This document shows, piece after piece, positions 1,143 to 25,075 of a DNA stretch of 25,075 nucleotides. Source of the DNA: a virus; the IMG/VR virus record IMGVR_UViG_3300045538_000441, positions 1 to 25,075 of that record. One strand, written 5' to 3'. A program made the position numbers and the translations under genes. A model generated the notes under the pieces. It was given only the letters and a program-made list of their open reading frames with translations. It searched no databases and was not told the DNA's origin. Numbering within the stretch: the stretch's first letter is position 1; every line of letters begins with the position of its first letter.

Positions 1143-1170
1143 TTGACTTTCTATAAAACAGTGGTAGGAT
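1143..1170 (+). promoter_or_regulatory. Promoter, leaderless type
   Basis: TTGACT (1143-1148), N16, TAGGAT (1165-1170) with extended TGn. The ATG lies 8 nt after the -10. Confidence 0.85.
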
Positions 1171-1178
1171 TTCCCTAC

Positions 1179-1496
1179 ATGAACCTAAAACTCTCCGCCA
1201 CTTCGATTGGGAAATTCACTCACGTTAAGAATTCGGACGGTTCCAAGTCGTTTGTCACTGAAGTATCCGATTTGGGTAACTTCAACATTTTTCAGAGGTT
1301 TTACGACGATGCGTGTGACGTGGGATTCCTTGTCTTTAATCCAGCAACCAACGTTACCATCAGCGTAGTTCTTTCCAAGGAACTTGCTGATTATGAGAAC
1401 AACGAGGTTCATGGATGGGAGTTCACACCCTCGACTGACTCTGTTCGTTTATACCCCAAGTTAAAGAATTATAAATTTGTAATCTACAATGACTGA
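1179..1496 (+). CDS. Hypothetical phage protein, 105 aa
   Basis: The open frame extends back to 1143, but that stretch is the promoter itself, so ATG 1179 is the start. The protein begins MNLKLSATSIGKFTHVKN and looks like an alternating beta-strand fold with aromatic and charged positions; no known family recognised. No Shine-Dalgarno sequence can exist because the -10 box ends 8 nt before ATG. The end overlaps the next gene by 8 nt (ATGACTGA). Confidence 0.75.
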   Translation: MNLKLSATSIGKFTHVKNSDGSKSFVTEVSDLGNFNIFQRFYDDACDVGFLVFNPATNVTISVVLSKELADYENNEVHGWEFTPSTDSVRLYPKLKNYKFVIYND

Positions 1497-1671
1497 CCTC
1501 ATAGAAGATACGACGACGAGAGCGACGTATTTCGATACGATGCTTTTGTCAGGGGCGTTGACGGAAATGGATGTAGCGACATATGACATGGTTAATAAAG
1601 TGCACCGCGTTACCAGAGGCACGACGTATCCGCGATTCGAGATATTAACATCGGAATTGGATTTAGATTGA
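1489..1671 (+). CDS. Small Thr-rich protein, possible degenerate ATW-family member
   Basis: 60 residues, starting inside the 3' end of the preceding gene, so probably coupled to it. The N-terminus reads EDTTTRATYFDT, with acg codons and the same Asp/Thr/Ala rhythm as the ATW family. Its TGA (1669-1671) is part of the next gene's TTGACT -35 box. Function unknown. Confidence 0.6.
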   Translation: MTDLIEDTTTRATYFDTMLLSGALTEMDVATYDMVNKVHRVTRGTTYPRFEILTSELDLD

Positions 1672-1695
1672 CTTTTTATACATTTGTGGTAATCT
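1668..1695 (+). promoter_or_regulatory. Promoter overlapping upstream stop codon
   Basis: TTGACT (1668-1673) contains the upstream TGA stop; N16; TAATCT (1690-1695), extended TGn. ATG is 9 nt downstream. Confidence 0.85.
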
Positions 1696-1704
1696 CTTAC
1701 CACG

Positions 1705-1992
1705 ATGACAACACAAGATAAGAAAAACGTTAAACTTCTCGCCGATTGGTTCACCTGTGGAGTTAAACTCTCCGAGGTTAAATATGTAGAAATCTGTTCC
1801 GTCCGCAAGGGTGGAATCACTCTCCAAGACAAGGGACACCACTTCGGAGGCGCATACTTCAACATCGCCGCTGATGAGGTTCAGTCCCGTCTCAAATTGA
1901 CCGTCAGTGAACTCCATCTGTGGTTGGTCAAGAACGGCGCGACTAAACGCAAACGTGTCAAACGGACTCCTTCCTATCCTCTCTACGACTAA
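1705..1992 (+). CDS. Hypothetical basic protein, 95 aa
   Basis: Starts at ATG 1705, 9 nt after the -10. The first half is mixed alpha/beta; the C-terminus is strongly basic (KRKRVKRT near residues 81-88), which may contact nucleic acid. No family recognised. It sits directly before the helicase but has its own promoter, so co-function cannot be inferred from an operon. Confidence 0.75.
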   Translation: MTTQDKKNVKLLADWFTCGVKLSEVKYVEICSVRKGGITLQDKGHHFGGAYFNIAADEVQSRLKLTVSELHLWLVKNGATKRKRVKRTPSYPLYD

Positions 1993-2009
1993 TAATTAAA
2001 CGATAGTCG

Positions 2010-2037
2010 TTGACTTTTATAAAATCTCTGATAGTCT
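2010..2037 (+). promoter_or_regulatory. Promoter of the helicase gene
   Basis: TTGACT (2010-2015), N16, TAGTCT (2032-2037), extended TGn. ATG is 8 nt downstream. Confidence 0.85.
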
Positions 2038-2045
2038 TATCCCAC

Positions 2046-3422
2046 ATGAATAACTCTTCTCTCCTCGAACCCCAAAGGGACCATGCCAAGAAACTCTTGG
2101 ATTCCATCTATTATAACGGTTACGCGGTCGACTTGTCTGACACGGGCACGGGCAAAACTTACTCAGCCTGTGCAATCGCAAAGGAACTGAATGTTCCCGT
2201 CGTGGTGGTCTGCCCGAAGGTGGTCATTCCCTCGTGGAAACGTGTCTTGGAATCCTTTGGTATCAAGGGTGCGTTGGTCATTAACTACGAGAAACTCTGC
2301 CGTGGCAATACCAAGTGGCTCACCTACGATAAGAAGGAACATAACAAAAAGAAAACTTGGGAATCCCTCGGTGTTCGCCTTCATTTCCCCGTCGGTTCGA
2401 TTGTCATCATGGATGAGGTTCATAAGTGTAAGGGATACACCAGCCTCAACAGTGACTTCCTCGTGTCATGTAAGAACCATGGTTACAAACTGTTGTTGAT
2501 GAGCGCCACGGCGGCCACCAATCCACTTGAGTTGAAAGCCCTCGGGTTCGTCTCCCACCTTCATACCGGCTATAACTTCTCTAAGTTCTGTAGGAGTGGT
2601 GGTGCGGAAGTGAATCGGTTTGGCGGTCTGACCATTGACATGAAATCCGATAAAGCTAAACGAGGAATGGCCGAGGTTCACAACTCTCTCTTCAATCTAC
2701 AGAAATCCGCCAGCCGCATGACGGTTGACATGTTCGATGGAATCTTTCCCGAGAACCACGTTGTCGCGGAGGTGTTCGACATGGGACAGAACACTGATAA
2801 AATTAATCGAGTCTATGAAATAATGCAGGCGGAATTGGATAAGCTCGATGCACGTGCTGAGAACTATTCCGGCCACATCTTCGCTATCATCATGGAAGCT
2901 CGTCGGCGGACTGAGTTGTTGAAGATTCCCGCGTTTGTCGAGACGATTGTCGATTTGTATGACGAGGGTATTTCTCCCGTCGTCTTCCTCAACTTCACCG
3001 ACAGTCTCATGTCGTTGGAGGAACGTTTGAAGAAGGATAGTCGATTGGATAAGATGATTTCGAAAATCGTCGGTGGTCAGAGTGACAAGGGCCGACAGTT
3101 CGACATTGACGAGTTCAACGCTGACCGCAAACGGATTATGTTGGTCAACCTCGCTGCGGGAAACTCGGGCGTGAACCTTCATGACTTGAACGGCAAACAT
3201 CCGAGACATTCGATGTTGGTCCCGTCATTCAGTGCCATCTCGTTGCTTCAGGCCTTGGGTCGGATTGCCCGTCAAGGTGGATTGACCAAGTGTCTCCAAA
3301 AGATAATCTTCTCCGCTAACACAATTGAGGAAGCAGCCTGTGAGAAAGTTCAGACACGTTTGGATAATCTCTCCACCTTGAATGACAATGACCTCAAGAG
3401 TGGCATCCGACTCTTCGCTTAA
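2046..3422 (+). CDS. Superfamily 2 DNA/RNA helicase (DEAD/SNF2-like)
   Basis: A 458-residue ATPase with the SF2 motif set in order: Walker A DTGTGKT (32-38), motif Ia around VVCPKVVIPSWKR (54-66), motif II DEVH (123-126), motif III SAT (153-155), and motif VI QALGRIARQG near 402-411 with the arginine-finger pattern. Both RecA-like lobes are therefore present. Substrate (DNA or RNA) cannot be decided; phage proteins of this type act in replication, recombination or transcript remodelling. An upstream extension to 2010 is the promoter. The start has no SD and should give a nearly leaderless mRNA. Its TAA abuts the ATG of the next small gene. Confidence 0.92.
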   Translation: MNNSSLLEPQRDHAKKLLDSIYYNGYAVDLSDTGTGKTYSACAIAKELNVPVVVVCPKVVIPSWKRVLESFGIKGALVINYEKLCRGNTKWLTYDKKEHNKKKTWESLGVRLHFPVGSIVIMDEVHKCKGYTSLNSDFLVSCKNHGYKLLLMSATAATNPLELKALGFVSHLHTGYNFSKFCRSGGAEVNRFGGLTIDMKSDKAKRGMAEVHNSLFNLQKSASRMTVDMFDGIFPENHVVAEVFDMGQNTDKINRVYEIMQAELDKLDARAENYSGHIFAIIMEARRRTELLKIPAFVETIVDLYDEGISPVVFLNFTDSLMSLEERLKKDSRLDKMISKIVGGQSDKGRQFDIDEFNADRKRIMLVNLAAGNSGVNLHDLNGKHPRHSMLVPSFSAISLLQALGRIARQGGLTKCLQKIIFSANTIEEAACEKVQTRLDNLSTLNDNDLKSGIRLFA

Positions 3423-3602
3423 ATGTCAGTGGAAATGCAATCTCGCAGGGCGTCGGTTGATTATACGTATGAGTTAGTAGACCTCTCAACGAATAGTCAA
3501 TCGATGATGACCGTTCGATCCGAACGCTATCACCACCGGGTTGTAATGGAGTTGGAGATTGGTGTCACGATACAGAACATGATTGACAATCCACATGAAT
3601 GA
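3423..3602 (+). CDS. Small hypothetical protein, 59 aa
   Basis: Directly abuts the helicase stop (TAAATG), so it is probably co-translated with it. It begins MSVEMQSRRASVDYTYELV and ends NPHE; no known domain. The stop overlaps the next start (ATGA, 3599-3602). A TTGACA near its end (3583-3588) has no fitting -10. Confidence 0.5.
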   Translation: MSVEMQSRRASVDYTYELVDLSTNSQSMMTVRSERYHHRVVMELEIGVTIQNMIDNPHE

Positions 3603-3787
3603 AAATGAAATCCAAAGAGGCTGAAATAAGAGATATATTGGAGGATGCAACGGCTGGTGCAACGTGGTGGGCAACGGCACCGGCGACCGCGAAATTAACG
3701 TGGGGTGGAACTGCGCATGTAACGTGGATACCGACGTCGGATGCAACGACGACGACGGCCACGAGGGAATTTGTTGACAATCTATAA
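3599..3787 (+). CDS. Small ATW-type protein
   Basis: 62 residues starting in the ATGA overlap. After a charged N-terminus it reads LEDATAGATWWATAPAT and then more Thr/Ala units, clearly the ATW repeat type with degenerate periodicity. The last codons (GTT GAC AAT CTA TAA) are also the -35 box and spacer of the next promoter. Confidence 0.65.
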   Translation: MKMKSKEAEIRDILEDATAGATWWATAPATAKLTWGGTAHVTWIPTSDATTTTATREFVDNL

Positions 3788-3801
3788 AAACAACGTAGAG
3801 T
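3774..3801 (+). promoter_or_regulatory. Promoter inside the 3' end of the preceding gene
   Basis: TTGACA (3774-3779), N16, TAGAGT (3796-3801). ATG is 8 nt downstream; the box lies in coding sequence. Confidence 0.8.
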
Positions 3802-3809
3802 TACTGAAC

Positions 3810-4100
3810 ATGAACACTGTCTCCAAAATCCTTCCCATTCGATATCTCGGATACTTCGACACCGTCCGCGGTCAATTTGACGTCAGCACCGAGGCTAACG
3901 TAATTGAACTCGGTGACGTCGATTTAATCAAATCCACCATCATAAATATTCTCTTCACAGACGGACCAAAGACGGTGGATTACCTCCTCGTGACCTTTGC
4001 TGACCAGATGTTTGTGATTGAACGTGATGGACCGGCTAGTTACTGTAAACGGTTGGTTTCCTACCATCCTCTCATGTCCAAGGTCAAACTGACCGCCTAA
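3810..4100 (+). CDS. Hypothetical phage protein, 96 aa
   Basis: Start set at ATG 3810, 8 nt after the -10; the longer open frame from 3741 would include the promoter. Mixed alpha/beta sequence starting MNTVSKILPIRYLGYFDTV. No catalytic motif or known family recognised. Followed after 27 nt by another small ATW-related gene without its own promoter. Confidence 0.75.
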   Translation: MNTVSKILPIRYLGYFDTVRGQFDVSTEANVIELGDVDLIKSTIINILFTDGPKTVDYLLVTFADQMFVIERDGPASYCKRLVSYHPLMSKVKLTA

Positions 4101-4127
4101 GCGGTTCCTAGCCTATCCCTGGCCTTA

Positions 4128-4325
4128 ATGATAATGATAACTACTGATGTGGATAAATGGAGAACTGCCTGGTGGGCGACTGAGGATGTTGCCGGTGACA
4201 TTGAGAACTCTATCTTCAACGCCTTATGTGGGCAGACGAGACTTGAAGTTCGTGAAATTCTCAATGATGTGAGAATAGATGATTTTACAAGAGATGTGGT
4301 CGAAGAATGTTTTGGAATTTTATGA
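4128..4325 (+). CDS. Small ATW-related acidic protein
   Basis: 65 residues (or 63 if it starts at the second ATG, 4134). Contains WRTAWWATEDVAGD, similar to the WWAT segment of the gene at 3599, then an acidic helical tail. Ends in an ATGA overlap with the first member of the tandem repeat cluster. Function unknown. Confidence 0.6.
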   Translation: MIMITTDVDKWRTAWWATEDVAGDIENSIFNALCGQTRLEVREILNDVRIDDFTRDVVEECFGIL

Positions 4326-4567
4326 ATAGATCGTTAACGGAAGGTACATTACGGGATGCCACGGATGATGCGACGTGGGATGCAACGAGGGATGCAACGA
4401 GGGATGCAACGTGGGATGCAACGGTGGTTGAAACGGCGGCTGCAACGAGGGAGGCAACGTGGGCTGCAACGGAGGTTGCAACGGCGGCTGCAACGAGGAA
4501 TGCAACGAGGGATGCAACGTGGGTTGCAACGAGGGATATGTTACGTGAAATAGTTCAAGAACTTTAA
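4322..4567 (+). CDS. ATWD-repeat protein 1 of the tandem cluster
   Basis: 81 residues. After a 12-residue head it is almost entirely a tetrapeptide repeat of the form Ala-Thr-(Trp/Arg/Glu/Val)-(Asp/Ala), e.g. DATRDATRDATWDAT, encoded by 12-nt units such as GCAACGAGGGAT and GCAACGTGGGAT. The tail is DMLREIVQEL, shared with the next copies. The start ATG 4322 overlaps the upstream stop (ATGA), which is preferred to ATG 4307. No signal peptide or membrane segment. Function unknown. The low-complexity DNA is also open in other frames, so the reading frame is supported by the conserved head and tail, not by openness alone. Confidence 0.75.
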   Translation: MNRSLTEGTLRDATDDATWDATRDATRDATWDATVVETAAATREATWAATEVATAAATRNATRDATWVATRDMLREIVQEL

Positions 4568-4571
4568 AGCT

Positions 4572-4763
4572 ATGATTTCAAATTTAAATAAAGTGGCGGA
4601 TTCAACGAGGGATGCAACGAGGGATGCAACGTGGGTTGCAACGTGGTATTCAACGATGGATGCAACGAGGAATGCAACGTGGGATGCAACGTGGGATTCA
4701 ACGTTAATTGCAACGAAGGATGCAACGTGGGATATGCTAAATGAAATAGTTCAAGAACTTTAA
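4572..4763 (+). CDS. ATWD-repeat protein 2
   Basis: 63 residues. Head MISNLNKVADST, about ten repeats (RDATRDATWVATWYST and similar), tail DMLNEIVQEL. Starts 4 nt after the previous stop, in the spacing AAAGCTATG that recurs between copies. It has no promoter of its own, so it is presumably read from upstream. Confidence 0.75.
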   Translation: MISNLNKVADSTRDATRDATWVATWYSTMDATRNATWDATWDSTLIATKDATWDMLNEIVQEL

Positions 4764-4767
4764 AGTT

Positions 4768-4962
4768 ATGACTTCAAAAACTTTAAATAAAGTGACGTCT
4801 GCAACGTGGGAGGCAACGTGGGATGCAACGAGGGATGCAACGTTGGATGCAACGAGGGATGCAACGAGGGATGCAACGAGGAATGCAACGATGGATGCAA
4901 CGATGGATGCAACGGCGGCTGCAACGAGGGATATGTTACGTGAAATAGTTCAAGAACTTTAA
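4768..4962 (+). CDS. ATWD-repeat protein 3
   Basis: 64 residues. Head MTSKTLNKV shared with copy 4, then SATWEATWDATRDAT repeats, then DMLREIVQEL. Separated from copy 2 by 4 nt. The near identity of head and tail to copies 2 and 4 at the DNA level points to recent tandem duplication. Confidence 0.75.
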   Translation: MTSKTLNKVTSATWEATWDATRDATLDATRDATRDATRNATMDATMDATAAATRDMLREIVQEL

Positions 4963-4966
4963 AACT

Positions 4967-5182
4967 ATGACTTCAAAAACTTTAAATAAAGTGGAGGTTG
5001 CAACGAGGGATGCAACGTTGGATGCAACGTGGGATGCAACGAGGGCTGCAACGAGGGCTGCAACGAGGGCTGCAACGTGGGCTGCAACGTGGGTTGCAAC
5101 GGTGGATGCAACGGGGGCTGCAACGGCGGATGCAATGAGGGATATGCTAGATGAAATAGTCGAAGAACTTCAAAGCCTATGA
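4967..5182 (+). CDS. ATWD-repeat protein 4
   Basis: 71 residues. Head MTSKTLNKV, then repeats with many Ala substitutions (RAATRAATRAATWAAT), then a variant tail DMLDEIVEELQSL. The TGA overlaps the next ATG (5179-5182). Confidence 0.75.
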   Translation: MTSKTLNKVEVATRDATLDATWDATRAATRAATRAATWAATWVATVDATGAATADAMRDMLDEIVEELQSL

Positions 5183-5310
5183 TTTCAAACATTCTAAATA
5201 AAGCGGAGAATGCAACGTGGTATGCAACGAGGGATTCAACGTGGGATGCAACGTGGAATGCAACGGATGATGCAACGGATGATGCGACGTGGGCTTTAGT
5301 TCATGATTGA
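5179..5310 (+). CDS. ATWD-repeat protein 5, truncated copy
   Basis: 43 residues beginning MISNILNKAENATWYATRDS and containing six to seven units, but lacking the DMLREIVQEL tail; it ends TWALVHD. Its TGA (5308-5310) falls inside the TTGACT -35 box of the next gene, so the missing tail may have been replaced when that promoter-gene module was placed here. Confidence 0.7.
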   Translation: MISNILNKAENATWYATRDSTWDATWNATDDATDDATWALVHD

Positions 5311-5334
5311 CTTTCTATAAAATGATGGTAAATT
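5307..5334 (+). promoter_or_regulatory. Promoter overlapping upstream stop codon
   Basis: TTGACT (5307-5312) contains the upstream TGA; N16; TAAATT (5329-5334), extended TGn. Only 6 nt to ATG: the predicted +1 is the A of ATG. Confidence 0.85.
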
Positions 5335-5340
5335 AGGACC

Positions 5341-5721
5341 ATGTTCAAAGCATCAGGCTACATCCAAGTTCAAGACGGTGTTCGGATCATCACGTCTCAC
5401 GACACGATTCGATACTATCACCGGCTTGTCGATGAATACTTCTTCCACTGCAAGAAGTTCCAGCTGCCGGCTCACGGTGCTCATATCACCCTAGTAAACC
5501 CGAAGATTCACAAGGTCAACTGGGCCAAGGCTCGGAAGTATATCGGTAAAGTCGTTGAATTTGAGGTATATCCCGATAAGGCTTATATCTCCTCTGTCAA
5601 CGTCTGGCTGCCGGTTCATTGTGACTTTGCAGACGATCTCAAGAAGGAGCTCGGCGTGGATGACGGAGGGAACTATTGGGGTCTTCACATGACCGTCTGC
5701 AATAAGAAATTTAACGGTTGA
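5341..5721 (+). CDS. 2H phosphoesterase (LigT / Acb1-like superfamily)
   Basis: 126 residues with the two H-x-T signatures of the 2H phosphoesterase superfamily: HGAHITLVNP (His48, Thr50) and GLHMTV (His116, Thr118), 68 residues apart, each placed to end a beta strand as in the family. 2H enzymes act on 2',3'-cyclic or 2'-5' phosphodiester bonds. Phage members serve in RNA repair or, as with T4 57B (Acb1), destroy cyclic nucleotide immune signals. Near a phage tRNA array both tRNA repair and anti-CBASS roles are possible; the sequence alone does not decide. The TGA lies in the next -35 box. Predicted fully leaderless. Confidence 0.8.
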   Translation: MFKASGYIQVQDGVRIITSHDTIRYYHRLVDEYFFHCKKFQLPAHGAHITLVNPKIHKVNWAKARKYIGKVVEFEVYPDKAYISSVNVWLPVHCDFADDLKKELGVDDGGNYWGLHMTVCNKKFNG

Positions 5722-5746
5722 CAGTTGAAATGAAATGAAGTAAGAT
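5718..5746 (+). promoter_or_regulatory. Promoter with real leader, overlapping upstream stop
   Basis: TTGACA (5718-5723) includes the upstream TGA; 17-nt spacer; TAAGAT (5741-5746). It is followed by a 30-nt A/C-rich leader (repeated aaac) without an SD. Confidence 0.75.
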
Positions 5747-5776
5747 ATTTAACAGTAGAAACAAACAAACAAAACC

Positions 5777-6094
5777 ATGAACAAGCAATCAAAGATCTAT
5801 CGGCAGGGAGACGTTCTCGTCATCCCCATCACCTCTATCCCAACCGGCCTCAAGCAGACCAAGCGAGTCACCCTCGCACTTGGCGAAGTCACGGGCCATC
5901 ACCACACCATCCATGAGGGAGCCACCGGTTACGCTTCTGACGTTGATGCGTTGGTGGATTACATCGAAGTTACCGCACCGGCGGCTGACTTGACTCACCA
6001 AGAGCACTCCACCATTCCGATTCCGACCGGAACGTATCGAGTGGTGAAGCAGGTCGAATACACTCCGGCCGAGTTGCGAAATGTTCGTGACTGA
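5777..6094 (+). CDS. Conserved phage protein of unknown function (RQGDV...GEVTGHHH type)
   Basis: 105 residues. The N-terminus IYRQGDVLVIPI and the later LALGEVTGHHHTI resemble a small family common in phages and prophages. A His cluster (about residues 40-43) could bind metal, but no function is established to my knowledge. It has a 30-nt A-rich leader without SD and is followed by a strong terminator, making it a single-gene transcript. Confidence 0.75.
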   Translation: MNKQSKIYRQGDVLVIPITSIPTGLKQTKRVTLALGEVTGHHHTIHEGATGYASDVDALVDYIEVTAPAADLTHQEHSTIPIPTGTYRVVKQVEYTPAELRNVRD

Positions 6095-6122
6095 TAACAA
6101 GTTTAGGTAGGGGAATCCAAAC

Positions 6123-6169
6123 ACCCGTTGAAGAGTTCTGTTAAGTTCGCTTCAACGGGTTTTCTTTTT
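6123..6169 (+). terminator. Strong intrinsic terminator
   Basis: Perfect 11-bp stem ACCCGTTGAAG (6123-6133) / CTTCAACGGGT (6150-6160), 16-nt loop, then TTTCTTTTT. Confidence 0.9.
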
Positions 6170-6181
6170 GATAATCATAAC

Positions 6182-6433
6182 ATGAACATGAACCCGAAAC
6201 CGAATGTGGATGCAATATCGAACGGAGTTGGAAATGAAACGAGACGCGTGGTGAATATGATGAGAGCGGTGAAAGCGGTTGGGGAATGGACGACTGTGAT
6301 TGCACCGATGTTGGATGTGACGTGGGATGCTGCGACGTCTAAGACGTGGGATAATGTAACGATGGTTAATCCGCGTGAACCGTGGAATATTGAAACCGAT
6401 GCTGCAATATGGGAATGTAATGTCAATGGATGA
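6182..6433 (+). CDS. Degenerate ATW-family protein
   Basis: 83 residues from ATG 6182; longer versions would start inside the terminator. The middle reads LDVTWDAATSKTWDNVT and the end WNIETDAAIWE, diverged Thr-Trp-Asp units with the same gacgtgggat DNA word as the repeat cluster. No clear promoter; a -10-like TAATCA lies just upstream. ATGA overlap with the next gene. Confidence 0.6.
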   Translation: MNMNPKPNVDAISNGVGNETRRVVNMMRAVKAVGEWTTVIAPMLDVTWDAATSKTWDNVTMVNPREPWNIETDAAIWECNVNG

Positions 6434-6654
6434 ACTCTGATATTTTATCTAAACTGGGTGTTGTGACGGATGCCGCGACACCATATGGTGTCGGGCTCAG
6501 TGTGTCGGTCGCGGCAAATCCTTCAACGACGAGTGAGGTACAATCAGCGATATTCAACAACACGTCTGATATGGTGTATAATGTTACATCCGGCGAGACG
6601 ATGAGCGCAACGTGGGGACTAATAAGTGAAGATGACCATGAAAATAGAGCATAA
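6430..6654 (+). CDS. Degenerate ATW-family protein
   Basis: 74 residues, starting in the ATGA overlap. Rich in Ser/Thr/Val with one recognisable SATWGL unit near residue 60. Function unknown. Followed at once by another small gene. Confidence 0.55.
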   Translation: MNSDILSKLGVVTDAATPYGVGLSVSVAANPSTTSEVQSAIFNNTSDMVYNVTSGETMSATWGLISEDDHENRA

Positions 6655-6655
6655 G

Positions 6656-6844
6656 ATGTTTATTGCGACGGTGAACGCAATGGATGTTGTGACGGGAGAT
6701 GTAATAACACATTCGACGCGGGGTGATGTACGGTACGTCGTAGCCGCGCTCGTCGGAGTTGCTACGATAGATATTACAAGAGCCGCAAAGAGAGAATCGT
6801 TGAACAGTGACGACGGGAAGTGGTCGGTAAAAGAAAATCGTTGA
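6656..6844 (+). CDS. Small hypothetical protein, ATW-family remnant
   Basis: 62 residues if started at ATG 6656, just after the previous TAA; GTG 6626 or ATG 6632/6638 are alternatives. Thr/Val/Asp-rich (VTGDVITHSTRGDV) with a basic C-terminus. Its TGA (6842-6844) is part of the TTGACT box of the first tRNA promoter. Confidence 0.55.
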   Translation: MFIATVNAMDVVTGDVITHSTRGDVRYVVAALVGVATIDITRAAKRESLNSDDGKWSVKENR

Positions 6845-6869
6845 CTTTTCAAATTTCATACTATATATT
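6841..6869 (+). promoter_or_regulatory. Promoter of the first tRNA segment
   Basis: TTGACT (6841-6846) containing the upstream TGA; 17 nt; TATATT (6864-6869). The first tRNA begins 27 nt later. Confidence 0.75.
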
Positions 6870-6895
6870 GGTATTGTTCTTTAAACAGTAATAAT

Positions 6896-6988
6896 GCTGT
6901 CGTGACCGGAATGGATGATCGGCTCGGGCTTCTATCCCGAATGAGATAACATCAAACACTATAGGTTCGAATCCTATCGACAGTACCA
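6896..6988 (+). tRNA. tRNA-Arg(TCT) with a 20-nt variable region
   Basis: Acceptor GCTGTCG/CGACAGT (G1-T72), A73 and encoded CCA. Anticodon arm TCGGG-CTTCTAT-CCCGA gives anticodon TCT. T-arm ATAGG-TTCGAAT-CCTAT. Between them are 20 nt instead of the usual 4-5 of an Arg tRNA, with a possible GAT/ATC mini-stem, so the shape is class II-like. Confidence 0.85.
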
Positions 6989-6992
6989 TAAA

Positions 6993-7066: not shown

Positions 7067-7140
7067 AATAATCTGTCGAATCGAACCAGTGTCTATCGGA
7101 CAACGCCATACGAAAACGTTGTAAAAAACTAAACATTTCA

Positions 7141-7254: not shown

Positions 7255-7256
7255 CA

Positions 7257-19030: not shown

Positions 19031-19233
19031 CCTTCGATGATAACAGCACTCCGGGGAACGTCAAGTAGAAGAATACCAACGGACAATTCTATATTCACAA
19101 AAGAATCTGACTGTTGAACGACGGACAAGACGTTTCTGATGTCTCCCCGTTTATATGAGATGCAGTCAGATGCGTCGTGTTCATCAATGCAATCGACGGT
19201 CAAATCTTTCAAAAATCTCACGTTTTTAGTCAT
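19027..19233 (-). CDS. Small hypothetical protein, 68 aa
   Basis: Begins MTKNVRFLKDLTVDCIDEHD and ends VPRSAVIIEG; beta-rich. Stop overlaps the zinc-ribbon gene start (ATGA), so the two are coupled. Its own promoter is not evident; it follows the HNH gene by 16 nt. Confidence 0.7.
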   Translation of the reverse strand: MTKNVRFLKDLTVDCIDEHDASDCISYKRGDIRNVLSVVQQSDSFVNIELSVGILLLDVPRSAVIIEG

Positions 19234-19249: not shown

Positions 19250-19936
19250 TTAAAGTAAAGTTTTCACTCCCTTCCTATATCGTTCACGTCTAATCAATCT
19301 TCCGTTTCCACGATTGCGCCCTTTATAGGTGGGATTCAACGTGTCACAATTAGAACACACCAACCTCAAATTGTCAACATTAGAATTGTCAGAGTCACCA
19401 TTGATATGATCGAGAATCAAAAGTATTGGCAGCTGCCCCCACTCAGTTAATCCGCACATCTCACATTTATGGCCCCGCTTGTGAATAAGATACTTCTTTA
19501 GTGTATTGTGGCTCGATTTTACTTGATATTCGCCGCTCTCGATTAACTGATACAGGGACTTGGTTGACTTTTCTCCCTGACATTTATTTGAACAAAACGA
19601 CCGCTGCCTTCCAACCTCACAGTCACAGTTCAAACAATGGTTCTTAGTTGTTTCCTTACGTCGTAGTGGATTGTTATATTTGGCAGAACAACTTGTGTCA
19701 CAGAATTTCGGATTTCCCAGATAGGGAAGAACTTCGTCACAAAACTTACATCGGTTAGGAGACTTGTTATATTCTTCTAAGTTCTTCTTACCCAGTTCTT
19801 TCTGTTGAAACGACACAGAACAACTCAGATTACAGAAGAAATTTGTGAATCCTGCTTGTGTTCTACGTTGGAACTCTGACTGGGATTTTTCAACAACTGA
19901 CTCACAGTTTTTACAAACTACTTTTACTTTATCCAT
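19250..19936 (-). CDS. HNH endonuclease with multiple N-terminal zinc fingers
   Basis: 228 residues. The N-terminal 130 residues hold three similar finger units of the form CxxC...FCxxxC (C8/C11 with FCNLSC; CKFC with FCDTSC; CLNC with FCSNKC). The C-terminal nuclease reads KCEMCGLTEWG, ILDHINGDSDNSNVDNLRLVCSNCD, an HNH core (His-Asn region) with structural Cys pairs. Likely a mobile homing endonuclease; it sits downstream of minus-strand tRNA-Thr, consistent with tRNA-linked mobility. Confidence 0.88.
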   Translation of the reverse strand: MDKVKVVCKNCESVVEKSQSEFQRRTQAGFTNFFCNLSCSVSFQQKELGKKNLEEYNKSPNRCKFCDEVLPYLGNPKFCDTSCSAKYNNPLRRKETTKNHCLNCDCEVGRQRSFCSNKCQGEKSTKSLYQLIESGEYQVKSSHNTLKKYLIHKRGHKCEMCGLTEWGQLPILLILDHINGDSDNSNVDNLRLVCSNCDTLNPTYKGRNRGNGRLIRRERYRKGVKTLL

Positions 19937-20088: not shown

Positions 20089-20117
20089 ACTATAAACCAA
20101 CACCGAAAACAAGTCAA
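20089..20117 (-). promoter_or_regulatory. Promoter of minus-strand tRNA-Thr
   Basis: TTGACT (20117-20112), 17 nt, TATAGT (20094-20089); tRNA 12 nt later. Confidence 0.75.
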
Positions 20118-20198: not shown

Positions 20199-20205
20199 AC
20201 CCCCT
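20191..20205. repeat. Palindromic repeat-like word (copy 3 of 4)
   Basis: CGGGAGGTACCCCCT; shares GGGAGGTACCCCC with the copy at 16696. Confidence 0.45.
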
Positions 20206-20908
20206 ACACCGGCTCCACCACGAACCCCGTGATGTCCTTCTTCGCTCGTCCCTTCTGAGTGAGGCCGACGATGACGTTCTTTGCGTCGGTGAAGCGGAGG
20301 TCCGTTTCGTCACCGTCAATGACCTTGTAACCCTTGAACGTCACCGGCAACGTGCCACGGAAAACCACTGCAACGTTCCCACCGGCCGCGAGAACTTCAT
20401 CAACTTCGACTTCATTCGACTCGCTACGAGAAAAGGTCAAATGGTAGTTCGACGGGAGGGTACCCCCAGTGAACTCCCGCATGCGACCGATGGACTTCGT
20501 GTAATCGTAGAACTGCACCGTCGGGAAATGTTCCATGATGTTCTTCCCATCAAGCTTCACCCGCTCCCACGGAAGGTCGCTGGTGCCGTTCAGTCGGATG
20601 CACGGAGTCTTACCTTCCTTCGTTGCCTTTTTAATCAGACGAGTGATCTCGAACGCCAACTGCTTCATCCAAACGTTCTTATTCTTGAAAAAGGCCAAAG
20701 TCTTGTTGACTCGGGCATCTTTAACGTTATCCATCGCGCCACGTCCGGCGGTGAACAGACATGCTGAACGACAACCAGCTGATGCATCTGGACAAGTGTT
20801 CGCCACTCCGGATTCATCCGAGGGCGCGAGGTATGAGATTCCGGTCAGATAACCAAACTCTGATCCCTTGACCGTCTTTGCGTTAGTGTCAATGCCGAGG
20901 ATTTCCAT
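20204..20908 (-). CDS. Gp88-like phage protein
   Basis: 234 residues. Diagnostic segments: GYLTGISYLAPSDESGVANT, CPDASAGCRSACL followed by FTAGRGAM, and CIRLNGTSDLPWE. These belong to the phage family often called gene product 88, found in mycobacteriophages and others; no established function. Four conserved Cys near residues 39-50 suggest a metal site. Start is 8 nt after a -10 (TTGATT-N16-TACAAT). Carries a palindromic repeat in frame at 20453-20469. Confidence 0.85.
   Translation of the reverse strand: MEILGIDTNAKTVKGSEFGYLTGISYLAPSDESGVANTCPDASAGCRSACLFTAGRGAMDNVKDARVNKTLAFFKNKNVWMKQLAFEITRLIKKATKEGKTPCIRLNGTSDLPWERVKLDGKNIMEHFPTVQFYDYTKSIGRMREFTGGTLPSNYHLTFSRSESNEVEVDEVLAAGGNVAVVFRGTLPVTFKGYKVIDGDETDLRFTDAKNVIVGLTQKGRAKKDITGFVVEPV
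20453..20469. repeat. Palindromic repeat (copy 4 of 4)
   Basis: CGGGAGGGTACCCCCAG inside the Gp88-like gene, coding GGTLP on the minus strand. Confidence 0.5.
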
Positions 20909-20916
20909 AGGTTGTT

Positions 20917-20944
20917 ATTGTAACGAGTTTTTATCGAAAATCAA
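20917..20944 (-). promoter_or_regulatory. Promoter of the Gp88-like gene
   Basis: TTGATT (20944-20939), N16, TACAAT (20922-20917); ATG 8 nt later. Confidence 0.75.
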
Positions 20945-20959: not shown

Positions 20960-21340
20960 TTAAGCCGTGGCCATCGCCGCCGACTCGCTGTGCGCACATT
21001 CACGTTGAAGGTCGGCCACCACCAAGGATTCCAGCTTCTCGGCCGGGATAAGCGTCTTGACCTGTCCCCAGTAACGGTGAATTTTCTTGAAGACAAAGGT
21101 CATCTGCTTCGGGCTGAGAGTTCCACGGGTGAGATACTGACGGGTCAGACTCGTGAGAAACTCCGCGTCACATCCGCTGAAGCCCACCGAGTTGGCTTCA
21201 TGGGTGATGCCGGCGGCCTGTTCAGACAACGTCTGAAACTCGTGGATTCTAGTCAATCCTCTTAACGCCCATGCGCTGTCGGTCGACAATTTCTTCTTGA
21301 GGAAGGTTTTGATTTGTGCTTGAGTGACTTTCGATTTCAT
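20960..21340 (-). CDS. Conserved phage/plasmid protein of unknown function, 126 aa
   Basis: Begins MKSKVTQAQIKTFLKKKLST; key segments ALRGLTRIHEFQTLSEQAAG, GFSGCDAEFLTSLTRQYLT, and LSPKQMTFVFKKIHRYWGQV. This layout (Q-T-x-x-E-Q, G-F-x-G-x-D-A-E-F-L, L-S-P-K-Q) is a widespread family in phages and mobile elements with no assigned function. Its promoter lies in the 3' end of the GIY-YIG gene. Confidence 0.8.
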   Translation of the reverse strand: MKSKVTQAQIKTFLKKKLSTDSAWALRGLTRIHEFQTLSEQAAGITHEANSVGFSGCDAEFLTSLTRQYLTRGTLSPKQMTFVFKKIHRYWGQVKTLIPAEKLESLVVADLQRECAHSESAAMATA

Positions 21341-21349
21341 TGTGAAGAT

Positions 21350-21378
21350 ATGTTAAATGATTTTTACACATTTGTCAA
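21350..21378 (-). promoter_or_regulatory. Promoter inside the 3' end of the GIY-YIG gene
   Basis: TTGACA (21378-21373), 17 nt, TAACAT (21355-21350); ATG 9 nt later. Confidence 0.75.
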
Positions 21379-22165
21379 CAAGTTTCCACCCACATCTGGT
21401 TCTATGATTTTGTCCGACAGTTAAAGCCGAAATTCGACTTTTTTTGAACCCAAATTTGGTTCTGAACTCGAACGACGTGCCTACAAAAGACTCTCCGCTA
21501 AAATCATTCTTAAATTCAAAAACCGTGCGATTGAAATTTGGACTATCTTTTCCGCACAATTTCCTTGCTCCCAGTCTAATAATTGACATTCGTTTCCGTT
21601 CAAGTGGGTCAAGAAACCTTTGTTTAGCTATGTCAGACAATTTTTTCTTTACGTCCGGACGATTCATTGAAATTTTCAAAGAATCTTTCATTTTTTGTTT
21701 ACTTTCCGGATGAAGTTCTCCACCAGATGCCTCAAAGTTGAGGTTGTAACATTTATCCATTTCCGATCTTGCGACATCCAAATATCTTTGTTCTGTTGCG
21801 AATAATTCCTTTCCATCCGGAACTATTTCTAAAATTACAAATTCAAACGAATCTTTTCCATATTTGTTCCATGCCCGTTGAAGTTTGACGTTTCCATGTT
21901 TATTTGGTTGAAGTCTTCTTACGTGACGTTTCCAACGAGAAGTTCTTCCTTGAGTTATATTCTTTGAACTTCCAACGTAATACTTTCCGTCAACTTTGTT
22001 TATTATCTTGTAAATTCCGCTTACTTTCCCGATACCGTTCCATTCGCCGTAGGCAAACTTCCTCCCGATTATGTTCGTAATATTTTCTTGACTTTTTTCG
22101 ATTGTTGTTTCGAATTTCTTCGTCGGAATAATATTTTCTTTTTCTTCCCATAAATTATCTTTCAT
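21353..22165 (-). CDS. GIY-YIG homing endonuclease
   Basis: 270 residues. The nuclease core begins GIYKIINKVDGKYYVGSS (about 49-66), then RWKRHVRRLQ (catalytic Arg region), LQRAWNKYGKDSFEFVIL, and EQRYLD with the conserved Glu. The C-terminal half carries NUMOD-type helical repeats (ESKQKMKDSLKIS) and a helix-turn-helix-like end (EFRTKFGFKKSRISALTVG). AT-rich. Inserted directly upstream of a conserved phage gene whose promoter now lies in the endonuclease coding sequence, so the junction is well adapted. Confidence 0.9.
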   Translation of the reverse strand: MKDNLWEEKENIIPTKKFETTIEKSQENITNIIGRKFAYGEWNGIGKVSGIYKIINKVDGKYYVGSSKNITQGRTSRWKRHVRRLQPNKHGNVKLQRAWNKYGKDSFEFVILEIVPDGKELFATEQRYLDVARSEMDKCYNLNFEASGGELHPESKQKMKDSLKISMNRPDVKKKLSDIAKQRFLDPLERKRMSIIRLGARKLCGKDSPNFNRTVFEFKNDFSGESFVGTSFEFRTKFGFKKSRISALTVGQNHRTRCGWKLVDKCVKII

Positions 22166-22357: not shown

Positions 22358-22657
22358 CTATTTGACGAATTCGGCCGGAATCGGCTCACCGTAGACTTTG
22401 TTGCGGAACTCGGCCAAATCCTTGGCGGATTCGTAGTTGGTCGCCTTCACCAACAGTTCAGCGTCCGCCGTAGGGAGGATGATGTAACGGTAGCCCTCGG
22501 TGTCGCCCAACACTTCATTGGTCCGCTTGTGGCGAGAATACATCTCGTGGCAGCTGTCGTGCGTGCCCGTGGTGAGAATGGTCGCCGTCTCTTTGACTCC
22601 GAGGCCGGGGAGATGATAAAACTCAACGAGTGATTCGGTGTTAGATACGTTGTTCAT
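22358..22657 (-). CDS. Hypothetical phage protein, 99 aa
   Basis: Begins MNNVSNTESLVEFYHLPGLG; contains HDSCHEMYSRHK and a regular C-terminal helix. No family recognised. Start is 9 nt after an extended -10 (TGATAATCT, 22672-22667) with a weak -35 (TTGTGT). Confidence 0.75.
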   Translation of the reverse strand: MNNVSNTESLVEFYHLPGLGVKETATILTTGTHDSCHEMYSRHKRTNEVLGDTEGYRYIILPTADAELLVKATNYESAKDLAEFRNKVYGEPIPAEFVK

Positions 22658-22707
22658 TGTGAAAATAGATTATCATTCATTTTCCCGAAACACAAGACTT
22701 ATTTTAA

Positions 22708-22810
22708 GATAACGATAAAGTGATGTGCGCTCCCCGTGGTCACAAATTCTCGGTGTTCGATCACCTCACAGGCAGTTATCGTCTGCCGCCGACGTTCGTT
22801 ACGAGGACAG
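22708..22810. ncRNA. Second structured RNA family, copy 2
   Basis: GATAACGATAAAG, then GTGA-TGTGCGC...GTGG-TCAC, CTCGGTG, a GGCAG/CTGCC hairpin whose loop (TTATCGT) is complementary to the 5' ACGATAA (possible pseudoknot), and ACGAGGACAG. Lies between divergent genes, so it could serve either strand. Confidence 0.55.
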
Positions 22811-22871
22811 ACTACCACTCACATATAAAAAGTCAAAGGTAATTCTCAGAAAAGATTTTTTAACATCACCG

Positions 22872-22899
22872 TTGACATTTGATAACAAACTGATATTCT
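22872..22899 (+). promoter_or_regulatory. Promoter, leaderless type
   Basis: TTGACA (22872-22877), N16, TATTCT (22894-22899), extended TGn; ATG 9 nt later. Confidence 0.85.
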
Positions 22900-22908
22900 A
22901 TTTCCACA

Positions 22909-23172
22909 ATGAACAACGTCACTAACTACGCTTCCTTCGCCGAATGGCACAACCTCAACTACGGTTCCGCTTACCGGACGCCGTCCTTCGACGCCATCGT
23001 GCGTGACATGAAATTCCTCGACCGCCAGTTTGATGAAACGGTTGGTCGCTTCTTCTACTTCACCGGTCAGTTTCACGCCACTCCCAACGTCCGGGTCGAC
23101 TTGACTTGGGAGGAAGTGGCGATGCGTTACGACAACATGTATTCTAATTTTTCTCGGTATGGGACGAATTAA
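22909..23172 (+). CDS. Hypothetical phage protein, 87 aa
   Basis: Begins MNNVTNYASFAEWHNLNYGS; aromatic-rich, with DLTWEEVAMRYDNMYSNFSR at the end. No family recognised. The next promoter starts 4 nt after its TAA. Confidence 0.75.
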   Translation: MNNVTNYASFAEWHNLNYGSAYRTPSFDAIVRDMKFLDRQFDETVGRFFYFTGQFHATPNVRVDLTWEEVAMRYDNMYSNFSRYGTN

Positions 23173-23175
23173 CGG

Positions 23176-23203
23176 TTGACTTTTTATTAAACCGAGATAC
23201 ACT
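23176..23203 (+). promoter_or_regulatory. Promoter, leaderless type
   Basis: TTGACT (23176-23181), N16, TACACT (23198-23203); ATG 6 nt later, predicted +1 at A of ATG. Confidence 0.85.
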
Positions 23204-23209
23204 TCTGTT

Positions 23210-23356
23210 ATGAAAATTACTGTTGAAACTTTTAACAGTAAGAGAAACCTTAAATTAGTTCTTCGGAACGGAAAGAAATTATCGGCTACACTCAATACTG
23301 GAAACACTCTGGCTTCACCGATGAACAATGGAACAGTCTGCTCGGTTTCACGATGA
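23210..23356 (+). CDS. 5' part of a frameshifted gene (zero frame, 48 aa)
   Basis: ATG 23210 is set by the promoter. The zero frame reads MKITVETFNSKRNLKLVLRN GK then 26 low-quality codons to TGA 23354-23356. A -1 shift at GGA AAG (23270-23275) continues as EIIGYTQYWKHSGFTDEQWN and joins the long frame at 23353. The joined protein would be 159 residues. Either programmed -1 frameshifting or a mutation/assembly indel; see findings. Confidence 0.6.
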   Translation: MKITVETFNSKRNLKLVLRNGKKLSATLNTGNTLASPMNNGTVCSVSR

Positions 23357-23688
23357 AGTTGATTCAGGGAACCGACATTTCGATTGTGAATGGGGCAGGC
23401 GACTCCGACACTGTCGCTCGGTTGCAACCGGACATGATTCAGTTCAACGGTGAAGGCAGCGACTCCTGTGAAACCTTCCATCTCACCAAGCGGGCACAAG
23501 ACTTTGAGTTTTGTAAGACTCGTCGACTTCCCTATGACGAAGTAGTGGTCGATGTGATGCGGGAAGCGATGCGGTTGAACCCCAACTTTGAACCATCCTC
23601 AGACGGTGGCCGGGAAGTGTTTTATGACACAGAAGGTCGCACGGTCATGGGGTATGGAATCGAGTCGTGGGGGCCGCAGAAGGCTTGA
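23353..23688 (+). CDS. Main part of the frameshifted gene, or coupled ORF of 111 aa
   Basis: If translated alone it starts at ATG 23353 in an ATGA overlap with the short frame. It contains acidic beta-rich segments (GEGSDSCETFHLTKRAQDFE) and EVVVDVMREAMRLNPNFE. No family recognised. Protein-like sequence extends upstream of 23353 in this frame to 23275, which argues that the true start lies in the other frame. TGA 23686-23688 is in the next -35 box. Confidence 0.7.
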   Translation: MKLIQGTDISIVNGAGDSDTVARLQPDMIQFNGEGSDSCETFHLTKRAQDFEFCKTRRLPYDEVVVDVMREAMRLNPNFEPSSDGGREVFYDTEGRTVMGYGIESWGPQKA

Positions 23689-23712
23689 CTTTCTATAAAA
23701 ATTCTATATCCT
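23685..23712 (+). promoter_or_regulatory. Promoter overlapping upstream stop codon
   Basis: TTGACT (23685-23690) with the upstream TGA; N16; TATCCT (23707-23712); ATG 6 nt later. Confidence 0.8.
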
Positions 23713-23718
23713 TCTCAC

Positions 23719-23814
23719 ATGGAAAACGAACATCTCGATAACGTCGTAAACGTTCGGTCCAGGGTTCACTCTCCAATCAAGAAAAGAATCGGTCATGGAT
23801 GTCGTGGGAATTAA
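23719..23814 (+). CDS. Small basic protein, 31 aa
   Basis: MENEHLDNVVNVRSRVHSPI then KKRIGHGCRGN. Accepted because it starts 6 nt after a good promoter, as other genes do. It might instead be a leader peptide for the gene 15 nt downstream. Confidence 0.5.
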   Translation: MENEHLDNVVNVRSRVHSPIKKRIGHGCRGN

Positions 23815-23829
23815 CTTTATCAACTAACA

Positions 23830-24300
23830 ATGAGCACCTTCACCAACGAAAAATTCAGAATCACCGTTCGGATTCCCCACTTCGGTTCGATTGGAACGGT
23901 TGCGTTTCTCAAGTTCCTCGCCTTCTCTGAACCAGTGGCGAACAAAGAGGCTGGTGGTGGCGAGACTCCTCAATACAAAGACGTGACGTTTGAGTTTCGT
24001 CATGAGTATCAGACCTTCACGTTCCTCCATACCCTCAAGAAGACGTTCCATCCGGACTTCTTCACCACCAAGTCAGAAACGGTCACGGAGTTCGATTCCA
24101 GTTGGGAACATCTCTGGGAACATCTCGCCGCGATGGTGAAAGCTCACGACCTTCATCACGAAATGTCTGACGACCATCGGGTGTGGCAGAGTGGTCAGGC
24201 AGAACTGAAGGCTATCAAGACCCTCGCCGACAAGTTGGCTATCATTGACAGAGAACGTGTCTGTGGGATGGTGAGGGGGATTTATAAATTGACGGCTTGA
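23830..24300 (+). CDS. Hypothetical phage protein, 156 aa
   Basis: Begins MSTFTNEKFRITVRIPHFGS; a beta-rich N-terminal half, then a helical, His/Trp-rich part (SSWEHLWEHLAAMVKAHDLH). No catalytic motif recognised. Probably co-transcribed with the 31-aa gene. Its TGA is in the next -35 box. Confidence 0.75.
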   Translation: MSTFTNEKFRITVRIPHFGSIGTVAFLKFLAFSEPVANKEAGGGETPQYKDVTFEFRHEYQTFTFLHTLKKTFHPDFFTTKSETVTEFDSSWEHLWEHLAAMVKAHDLHHEMSDDHRVWQSGQAELKAIKTLADKLAIIDRERVCGMVRGIYKLTA

Positions 24301-24324
24301 CTTTTTCTAAAATACTGTTAAATT
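24297..24324 (+). promoter_or_regulatory. Promoter overlapping upstream stop codon
   Basis: TTGACT (24297-24302) with the upstream TGA; N16; TAAATT (24319-24324), extended TGn; ATG 8 nt later. Confidence 0.85.
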
Positions 24325-24332
24325 AACCCCAT

Positions 24333-24527
24333 ATGAACATGACATGGAAAGAACTCGCCGCTAAAATTAACTCCCTTCCCCCCGAACGACAAGAGGATAC
24401 TGTAACGATTTCTCTTGATATTATGCAAGAATGTATTCCTGCGGCATACGTTTGTCAGGTTTCAGATGAAGATTGGGCATTGGGAATCTTGGATAAGGGA
24501 CATTTTGTAATTGCGGTAGAGGCTTGA
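24333..24527 (+). CDS. Small phage protein of the TWKELAAKIN type, 64 aa
   Basis: MNMTWKELAAKINSLPPERQ, then EDTVTISLDIMQE, a small conserved type in phages and bacteria (an N-terminal helix with PPERQ turn, then beta strands). Function unknown. TGA 24525-24527 lies in the next -35 box. Confidence 0.75.
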   Translation: MNMTWKELAAKINSLPPERQEDTVTISLDIMQECIPAAYVCQVSDEDWALGILDKGHFVIAVEA

Positions 24528-24551
24528 CTTTCTATAAAAACAGTCTATACT
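24524..24551 (+). promoter_or_regulatory. Promoter overlapping upstream stop codon
   Basis: TTGACT (24524-24529) with the upstream TGA; N16; TATACT (24546-24551); ATG 10 nt later. Confidence 0.88.
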
Positions 24552-24561
24552 GTTTCCACAA

Positions 24562-24933
24562 ATGAAAACTTACACCGTAAAAGTTGATAACAACGGAGAC
24601 AAGTGTTGGTATCTCAACGGCAAACTGCACCGTGAAGATGGACCTGCCATTGAATATGCCAACGGAGACAAGTATTGGTATCTCAACGGCAAACGTCACC
24701 GTGAAGATGGACCTGCGGTTGAATCCAACGGAAGCAAGTTTTGGTATCTCAACAACAAACTGCACCGTGAAGATGGACCTGCGGTTGAATATACCGACGG
24801 ATACAAGGAATGGTGGATCAACGACAAACTTGTGACCGAACAGGATGTGCTTAATTCTTCACAAACTATTGAGATTGAGGGAGTTAAGTATTCGATTGCA
24901 CAAATCAAGGCCGCGTTGAAGAAAGTGGCTTGA
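24562..24933 (+). CDS. MORN-like WYLNGKLHREDGPA repeat protein
   Basis: 123 residues with three clear and one weaker repeat of the form (K)xWYLNGKxHREDGPAxE, about 21-22 residues apart (residues 15-80), then a divergent WWINDKLVTE unit and a C-terminal helix (GVKYSIAQIKAALKKVA). Such repeats occur in phage proteins as beta-hairpin arrays similar to MORN repeats; they probably mediate protein contact. The repeats are also close at the DNA level (63-66-bp units), indicating recent expansion. Confidence 0.85.
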   Translation: MKTYTVKVDNNGDKCWYLNGKLHREDGPAIEYANGDKYWYLNGKRHREDGPAVESNGSKFWYLNNKLHREDGPAVEYTDGYKEWWINDKLVTEQDVLNSSQTIEIEGVKYSIAQIKAALKKVA

Positions 24934-24957
24934 CTTTTTCTAAAATAGGTCTAAACT
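24930..24957 (+). promoter_or_regulatory. Promoter overlapping upstream stop codon
   Basis: TTGACT (24930-24935) with the upstream TGA; N16; TAAACT (24952-24957); ATG 9 nt later. Confidence 0.85.
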
Positions 24958-24966
24958 GTTTTCACA

Positions 24967-25075
24967 ATGAACGAACAACTTGACCCCCAAAACGAAATTC
25001 ACAGTCTCGCCCACGTTTCTTCTGAGGAAGTTTTCGACGGTCATCTCGAAGCTCAATATGAGGAACGGACAGAAG
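24967..25075 (+). CDS. Hypothetical protein, 3' end outside window
   Basis: 36 codons visible: MNEQLDPQNEIHSLAHVSSE, then EVFDGHLEAQYEERTE. Start set by the promoter 9 nt upstream. Acidic; too short to classify. Confidence 0.65.
   Translation, partial: MNEQLDPQNEIHSLAHVSSEEVFDGHLEAQYEERTE

Follow-up and report, generated by a model that had tools for sequence, protein, structure and literature searches.

Sigma70-type promoters set against start codons in an uncultured virus, and their predicted leaderless or near-leaderless mRNAs

The window analyzed here is the entire record of an uncultured virus (IMGVR_UViG_3300045538_000441; 25,075 bases, G+C 44.8%), which carries 29 tRNA genes, a helicase, a gp88-family protein, and homing endonucleases. 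Many of its small genes are preceded by a sigma70-like promoter, a -35 box TTGACW and a -10 box TANNNT separated by 16 or 17 nucleotides (nt), and most of these promoters end only 6–10 nt before a start codon, a distance that we call the offset. Is this proximity an accident of sequence, a trace of some other site, or an arrangement that yields mRNAs with next to no leader? We consider the last quite probable: the sequence evidence points to sigma70-type promoters placed to give leaderless or near-leaderless mRNAs, whose predicted first base, an A, stands seven (sometimes eight) nt beyond the -10 box.

The motif TTGACW-N16/17-TANNNT has 27 matches in the window, against a mean of 1.14 and a maximum of 4 in shuffled sequences, so that the features of a sigma70-type promoter (a TTGACA-like -35, a spacer of 16–18 nt, and a TANNNT -10) occur together well beyond chance (27 versus 1.1). 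A tally made by hand from the motif and open reading frame (ORF) lists places a start codon (18 ATG, 1 GTG) with an ORF of at least 30 codons at offset 6–10 after 19 of the 27; a TTG at 20117 on the minus strand was dropped because a tRNA follows. Counted mechanically under the same rules, with TTGACN in place of TTGACW, the window holds 22 such fused sites, whereas 60 first-order Markov sequences gave a mean of 0.1 and a maximum of 1. With both controls far below the observed counts, we reject a chance origin. A preliminary description of this DNA, made from the letters alone, had claimed the layout for at least 22 gene starts; the placement of the motif at starts is borne out and 22 stands as a raw count, but as a number of genes it is slightly high. 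Two of the matches are not credible (the GTG at 13789 and 20117 minus, with the tRNA next), which leaves 20: 19 with TTGACW (16 plus, 3 minus) and one with TTGACG (19064, minus). A further fused site, with a mismatch in the -35 box, precedes the gp88 gene (20944, minus) and obeys the 6–10 nt rule.

The motif search in relatives that the preliminary description had called for finds the layout common to the records that we label G001 and G002 and to further ones. The closest, G001 (IMG/VR 3300046092_000154, 73.6 kb), has blocks 73–100% identical to the window and a helicase protein 93% identical, and holds 41 fused sites (6–10 nt). G002 (3300002143_000079, 80.3 kb, of which 80.0 kb were analyzed) has gp88 in common with the window (64%) and encodes T4-like head, portal, and baseplate proteins; its nearest isolates are Microcystis phage Mel-JY01 and Flavobacterium phages immuto, at about 52–53%. 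In the 25-kb window no head gene was noticed, and G001 gave no match to the head protein of G002. A known isolate was rejected as the source of the window: a search of 50,697 phage records gave no DNA match, and the helicase protein found none either. For ATG-initiated ORFs of at least 35 codons, the offset peaks at 6–9 nt: 17 of 27 motifs in the window and 36 of 64 in G001 lie at 6–10, and 39 of 62 in G002 at 6–9. ATG offsets also cluster at 6–10 nt in G003. The G002 motifs are concentrated beyond about 47 kb, at a distance from the structural genes.

Promoter and start codon together span about 36–40 bp, and the box often overlaps the preceding stop codon. The 12 TGA codons said earlier to lie inside the TTGACA/T box are all correctly placed (12/12), and the box at 3774 is indeed coding, inside ORF 3599–3787; ten of the 12 fit the 6–10 nt rule, the other two being 5718 (ATG 30 nt away) and 6841 (tRNA-Arg). 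Of the 109 fused promoters pooled from the window, G001, and G002, 79 have on their upstream side an ORF of 50 codons or more that ends between -100 and +34 of the box; for 23 of these 79 that end coincides with the TGA of TTGAC, more than at any other single position. The second codon is AAA, AAC, AAT, or AAG in 69 of 92 fused promoters, and an extended -10 (TGn) is present in 38 of 92.

A single base suggests where transcription would begin. In the pooled promoters with offset 8–10 (window, G001, and G002), position 7 after the -10 box is A in 54 of 58, while positions 4, 5, 6, and 8 are A in 10, 9, 5, and 6, and position 6 is a pyrimidine in 50; the window alone gives A at position 7 in 13 of 14. 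By offset, the proportion is 92% (8), 90% (9), and 100% (10). At offset 6, position 7 is taken by the ATG's own A, and at offset 7, where the A of the ATG falls at position 8, position 7 is A in just 38%. In two additional records, G039 and G035, the count is 36 of 36. Because this A tracks the -10 box and not the moving ATG, it appears to mark the start of transcription rather than that of translation. The predicted leaders are 0, 2, 3, or 4 nt: about 6 nt separate the -10 box from the start codon, or the presumed initiator base lies 0–4 nt from that codon.

The distance itself is conserved. In 11 of 11 homologous modules of the window and G001, the -10-to-start distance is identical, even where the box, the spacer length, or the spacer sequence has changed. 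In 10 of the 11 pairs the proteins are similar from residue 1 onward, and in the 150 codons after the ATG the changes fall at codon positions 1, 2, and 3 in the numbers 28, 23, and 49.

Shine–Dalgarno cores, counted 4–18 nt before starts alongside a control stretch, are at background: 1 of 35 genes in the window (control 1), 9 of 126 in G001 (10), and 6 of 94 in G002 (3), and likewise at background in G039 and G005, while the same caller finds 139 of 249 in T4 (13) and 26 of 40 in G014 (1). The whole genome, and not the fused genes alone, is thus without such sites. A phage ribosomal protein S21, sought as a translation helper, was found in none of G000, G001, G002, G005, G014, G021, and 12 more IMG/VR records; Mel-JY01 and LR756508 have the gene. 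As to the host, G001 carries two DUF1501 genes (at locus L105, 2245–3603 on the plus and 562–1899 on the minus strand). One of these has 124 cellular relatives, and the titles of the best 80 (56–63% identical) name Verrucomicrobiota or Planctomycetota in nearly every case, which points to a host from one of these phyla for G001 and, by closeness, for the window. Two members of Verrucomicrobia, Akkermansia included, are described as scarce in Shine–Dalgarno sites (PMC10783764), few genes of Planctomycetes are said to have them (PMC5397173), and huge phages with possible S1 proteins are said to have them rarely (PMC7162821). The background level in the window and its close relatives is consistent with a host in which these sites are scarce.

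The near-leaderless reading, with 5' untranslated regions of 0–4 nt as first proposed, draws support from the A locked to the -10 box, the conserved offsets, the alignments from residue 1, the third-position bias, and the lack of a Shine–Dalgarno excess. In the mechanism that we envisage, host RNA polymerase would start on an A seven (sometimes eight) nt past the -10 box, which would be the A of the ATG or lie 2–4 nt ahead of it (5'-AC-AUG or 5'-ACA-AUG), ribosomes would initiate on the 5'-terminal AUG without Shine–Dalgarno contact, and each small gene would have its own start in a dense array whose transcripts are probably nested. From the sequences, spacing, statistics, conservation, and Shine–Dalgarno scarcity described above, we infer the transcription start, the use of host RNA polymerase, 70S-type initiation, early timing, and the host. 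Several points weigh against this reading. The start about 7 nt after the -10 box is taken from the general behavior of sigma70 promoters and not from this host. The same genome has promoters with an ATG 30–54 nt away (153, 5718, and 17627 minus). A weak Shine–Dalgarno excess is seen in two larger records of the same layout (G032, 47/481 versus 19; G044, 28/318 versus 15), and in both the A lock is weaker, with A at position 7 in 43% at offset 8, which makes the lock a property of the window's own lineage that weakens elsewhere; their commonest offset is 6 (54 promoters in G044, 37 in G032). Read-through from upstream promoters could yield leadered copies of most genes. Finally, the host assignment rests on two genes in one relative, since DUF1501 was not found in 18 of 20 phage records searched; it is not extendable to the whole group (2/20).

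Among the alternatives, the one that survives best, which we still think rather unlikely, is that a longer composite site is read by a sigma factor or regulator encoded by the phage and not by plain host sigma70, the closeness to the ATG being partly a by-product of the spread of one 40-bp cassette; this would be compatible with leaderless transcription. A sequence TTYTATAAA at the start of the spacer (at least 7 of 9 positions) favors fused over non-fused promoters in the window (12/18 versus 1/9), G001 (25/37 versus 5/27), and G002 (28/40 versus 5/22), and is also commoner in fused promoters of G039, but G032 shows no difference (29/77 versus 29/81). Of 404 same-length pairs of cassettes that precede unrelated genes, 11 are at least 85% identical; the one at 12676–12714 (plus) is 97% identical to one ahead of an unrelated gene in G001. 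Several short window–G001 matches span the promoter and start codon only (e.g., 12676–12716 with 45111–45151), and homology to G001 at 24132–24311 ends inside the next gene's promoter. These patterns fit a possible exchange of genes at the cassette. A dedicated reader of the composite site is, however, made less probable by a -35, a 16–17 nt spacing, and a -10 near the sigma70 consensus, and 11 IMG/VR records gave no Sigma70_r2 match in a search that barely finds the T4 match (E 0.004).

We judge it improbable that the promoters are real but add little, the proteins coming mainly from longer read-through messages by termination–reinitiation or S1-type initiation. There is little room between neighboring modules, and terminator-like sites are not enriched (4 versus 6.6 expected in 1–7000; 1 versus 2.6 in 22600–25075), which makes nested, overlapping transcripts likely. 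The description of each gene as a self-contained module accordingly holds for its own promoter and start within about 36–40 bp, but terminators do not separate the genes. Several neighbors also overlap as TAAATG or ATGA (e.g., 3422/3423), which would need coupling in any case. Yet the -10-to-ATG distance and the initiator A are held more tightly than read-through requires, and a fused promoter likewise precedes the first gene past a change of strand (22872). That the named ATGs are not the true starts, and that the promoter gives an ordinary leader to starts farther downstream, is highly improbable: the starts are known from ORF scanning alone and some genes have later ATGs, but the similarity from residue 1, the third-position bias after the ATG, and the unenriched Shine–Dalgarno sites all run counter to it.

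Relatives of the window have a second class of putative promoter. TATTTAT lies within 26 nt of the ATG in 16 of 94 genes of G002 (control 1), 8 of 126 of G001 (0), 41 of 481 of G032 (3), 16 of 318 of G044 (3), and 16 of 211 of immuto (3). Its distance to the ATG is 4–7 nt at 7 of 8 sites in G001, 10 of 18 in G002, 28 of 56 in G032, and 16 of 27 in G044, compared with 4 of 33 in immuto and 0 of 8 in T4. TATTTAT favors genes of at least 200 aa (5/25 in G001 and 10/37 in G002, against 1/73 and 2/37 under 120 aa), and the sigma70 class favors those under 120 aa (23/73 in G001, 15/37 in G002); the sigma70 class of G032 has no small-gene preference (23/187 versus 24/193). Reversed on the other strand, TATTTAT is the core of the T4 late box, and we infer that it is a T4-like late promoter, also fused to the ATG. 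The Sigma70_r2 search of the 11 IMG/VR records likewise gave no late sigma factor.

How widespread is the layout? In a comparison of 22 records, fused sites number 0 in T4, SPO1, and lambda, 4 in S-PM2, and 11 in phiYS40. A pattern search of viral contigs gave 111 stretches, and from 80 of them that were listed, 17 IMG/VR records were chosen for at least one match, mostly long or multi-match, so that their counts of 4–93 do not measure prevalence; they reach 93 in G045 (353.8 kb), 79 in G044, and 77 in G032, with 0–1 for the reversed pattern. Six of these motif-picked records (G032, G034, G038, G043, G045, and G046) have a head protein 63–99% identical to that of G002; Mel-JY01 and immuto, the isolates nearest to them, carry 2 and 1 fused sites. 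A motif-blind sample of 19 records, chosen by length from 80 head-protein loci, gave 38 fused versus 6 reversed sites; it covers stretches in and near the late region, in which the sigma70 class is seldom found, and two of its records have six identical sites in common. Among 76 helicase/gp88 loci, the layout is present in some lineages only (e.g., L032, L033, L034, L038, L042, L047, L048, and L100), and high-GC lineages are without it. In G005 a gene caller gave 0 fused of 66 genes, whereas the ORF scan gave 8 at offset 6. L100 (record G021) is a GC-richer gp88 phage in which almost one and the same promoter precedes many genes, at offset 6. A host-wide habit was rejected: ten DUF1501-found genomes, Verrucomicrobiota or Planctomycetota by title, hold 51 fused versus 16 reversed sites in total, or about one fused site per Mb, so that the high density belongs to the phage. 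The layout looks like a habit of a whole lineage.

We offer, tentatively and with more doubt than confidence, a broader proposal: that an uncultured lineage of giant T4-like phages gave up leaders and Shine–Dalgarno sites for many genes, and that sigma70 promoters (mostly of small genes) and TATTTAT promoters (mostly of structural genes) were welded to the ATG as an exchangeable cassette of 36–40 bp, whose function would depend on ribosomes that initiate efficiently at 5'-terminal AUGs, a possible trait of Verrucomicrobiota scarce in Shine–Dalgarno sites. If true, there would be large phages with much of their gene expression leaderless and a natural system in which to study initiation on 5'-terminal AUGs, and gene finders based on Shine–Dalgarno sites may misplace starts in such genomes. 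With box, start point, and ATG within 40 bp, the cassette would make transcription starts predictable to the base, and it could serve as a marker for finding related phages and guessing hosts scarce in Shine–Dalgarno sites.

Table 1. Promoters of the window, fused or not fused to a start codon (distance, from the -10 box to the start codon).
Feature	Position	Strand	Downstream gene	Distance (nt)	Remarks
Fused, ATG	1143–1181	+	1179–1496	8	
Fused, ATG	1668–1707	+	1705–1992	9	TGA of upstream ORF in box
Fused, ATG	2010–2048	+	helicase, 2046–3422	8	
Fused, ATG	3774–3812	+	3810–4100	8	box within ORF 3599–3787
Fused, ATG	5307–5343	+	5341–5721	6	predicted truly leaderless; TGA in box
Fused, ATG	11684–11720	+	11718–11882	6	
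Fused, ATG	11879–11919	+	11917–12120	10	TGA in box
Fused, GTG	12676–12714	+	12712–12894	8	TGA in box
Fused, ATG	14235–14273	+	14271–14474	8	
Fused, ATG	14684–14722	+	14720–14932	8	TGA in box
Fused, ATG	17914–17952	-	17629–17916	8	TGA in box
Fused, ATG	18482–18521	-	18152–18484	9	
Fused (TTGACG), ATG	19028–19064	-	18755–19030	6	
Fused, ATG	20906–20944	-	gp88 family, 20204–20908	8	one -35 mismatch (TTGATT)
Fused, ATG	21338–21378	-	20960–21340	9	spacer 17
Fused, ATG	22872–22911	+	22909–23172	9	
Fused, ATG	23176–23212	+	48-codon ORF at 23210	6	
Fused, ATG	23685–23721	+	31-codon ORF at 23719	6	TGA in box
Fused, ATG	24297–24335	+	24333–24527	8	TGA in box
Fused, ATG	24524–24564	+	24562–24933	10	TGA in box
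Fused, ATG	24930–24969	+	ORF from 24967, leaves window	9	TGA in box
Not fused	153–180	+	ATG at 235	54	leader without Shine–Dalgarno
Not fused	5718–5746	+	ATG at 5777	30	A-rich leader without Shine–Dalgarno; TGA in box
Not fused	17600–17627	-	ATG at 17548	51	A-rich leader without Shine–Dalgarno
Not fused	6841–6869	+	tRNA-Arg 6896–6988		TGA of ORF 6626–6844 in box
Not fused	20089–20117	-	tRNA-Thr 20077–19989		

The non-fused promoters (Table 1), which the preliminary description had overlooked as a class, precede three ATGs and two tRNAs. Their longer leaders (5747–5776 and 181–234, plus; 17549–17599, minus) are mostly G-poor and A-rich, such as acaaacaaacaaaacc, and similar A-rich leaders precede G001 genes at 34604 and 48177–48587 (minus). 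Two promoters have no obvious gene behind them. Downstream of the one at 7684 (plus), some 200 nt hold no evident gene; the region (7665–7885), a candidate small RNA, is 91–98% identical to G001 42482–42720 and gave no Rfam match above the gathering score. The strong promoter at 22836 (minus) has no ORF behind it (22690–22836), a candidate non-coding RNA, and a similar promoter lies at 51889 (minus) in G001. Elsewhere, 6896–17017 (plus) is a dense array of tRNA genes broken by ORFs, near which lie an HNH endonuclease (19250–19936, minus) and a GIY-YIG endonuclease (21353–22165, minus). The run of ORFs at 4307–5310 (plus) is made of a 12-nt repeat of the types gatgcaacgtgg and gatgcaacgagg, with similar blocks in G001 at about 28939–29092, 31845–31941, 37700–37890, 39813–39873, and 40463–40691.

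Leaderless phage mRNAs are already known from phiYS40 and predicted in cluster O mycobacteriophages, and a -10 beside ORFs is known from Deinococcus. Our literature search, with most subscription papers outside it, gave no recognized report of the layout in T4-like giant phages or in phages of Verrucomicrobiota. For the Thermus phage phiYS40, leaderless middle and late mRNAs are reported (PMC3594737), as is an extended -10, TGnTA, in the promoters of leaderless phage genes (PMC3594737, PMC4842269). Counted as a positive control, it too peaks at offset 6: of 30 motifs that lie no more than 60 nt from an ATG-ORF, 8 have a -10 ending 6 nt before the ATG. It differs in that Shine–Dalgarno sites are still frequent (63 of 156 genes versus 14 in the control stretch) and in having 11 fused sites (6–9 nt) in 152 kb, against the 41 of G001 in less than half that length. 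Unlike phiYS40, the promoters described here have a consensus -35, often the previous gene's TGA in the box, a usual offset of 8–9, and an AC or ACA leader. In Deinococcus-Thermus, TANNNT directly before ORFs gives leaderless mRNA (PMC12340547), with the -10 adjoining the ORF as in the window; there, however, the pattern is bacterial and a well-placed -10 can act as a promoter that a -35 only enhances (PMC12340547), whereas the window has a consensus -35 and a conserved spacer. The SigA-like promoters PL1, PR2, and PL2 of the cluster O mycobacteriophages (Corndog and relatives) are predicted to initiate transcription at the very first base of the start codon (PMC4351075), but each genome has 8–9 predicted promoters altogether rather than one for every small gene. 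T4, whose head and portal proteins have counterparts in the relatives of the window, has no fused sigma70 sites in 168.9 kb and uses Shine–Dalgarno sites (139 of 249 genes), and its TATAAATA stands 13–34 nt from the ATG.

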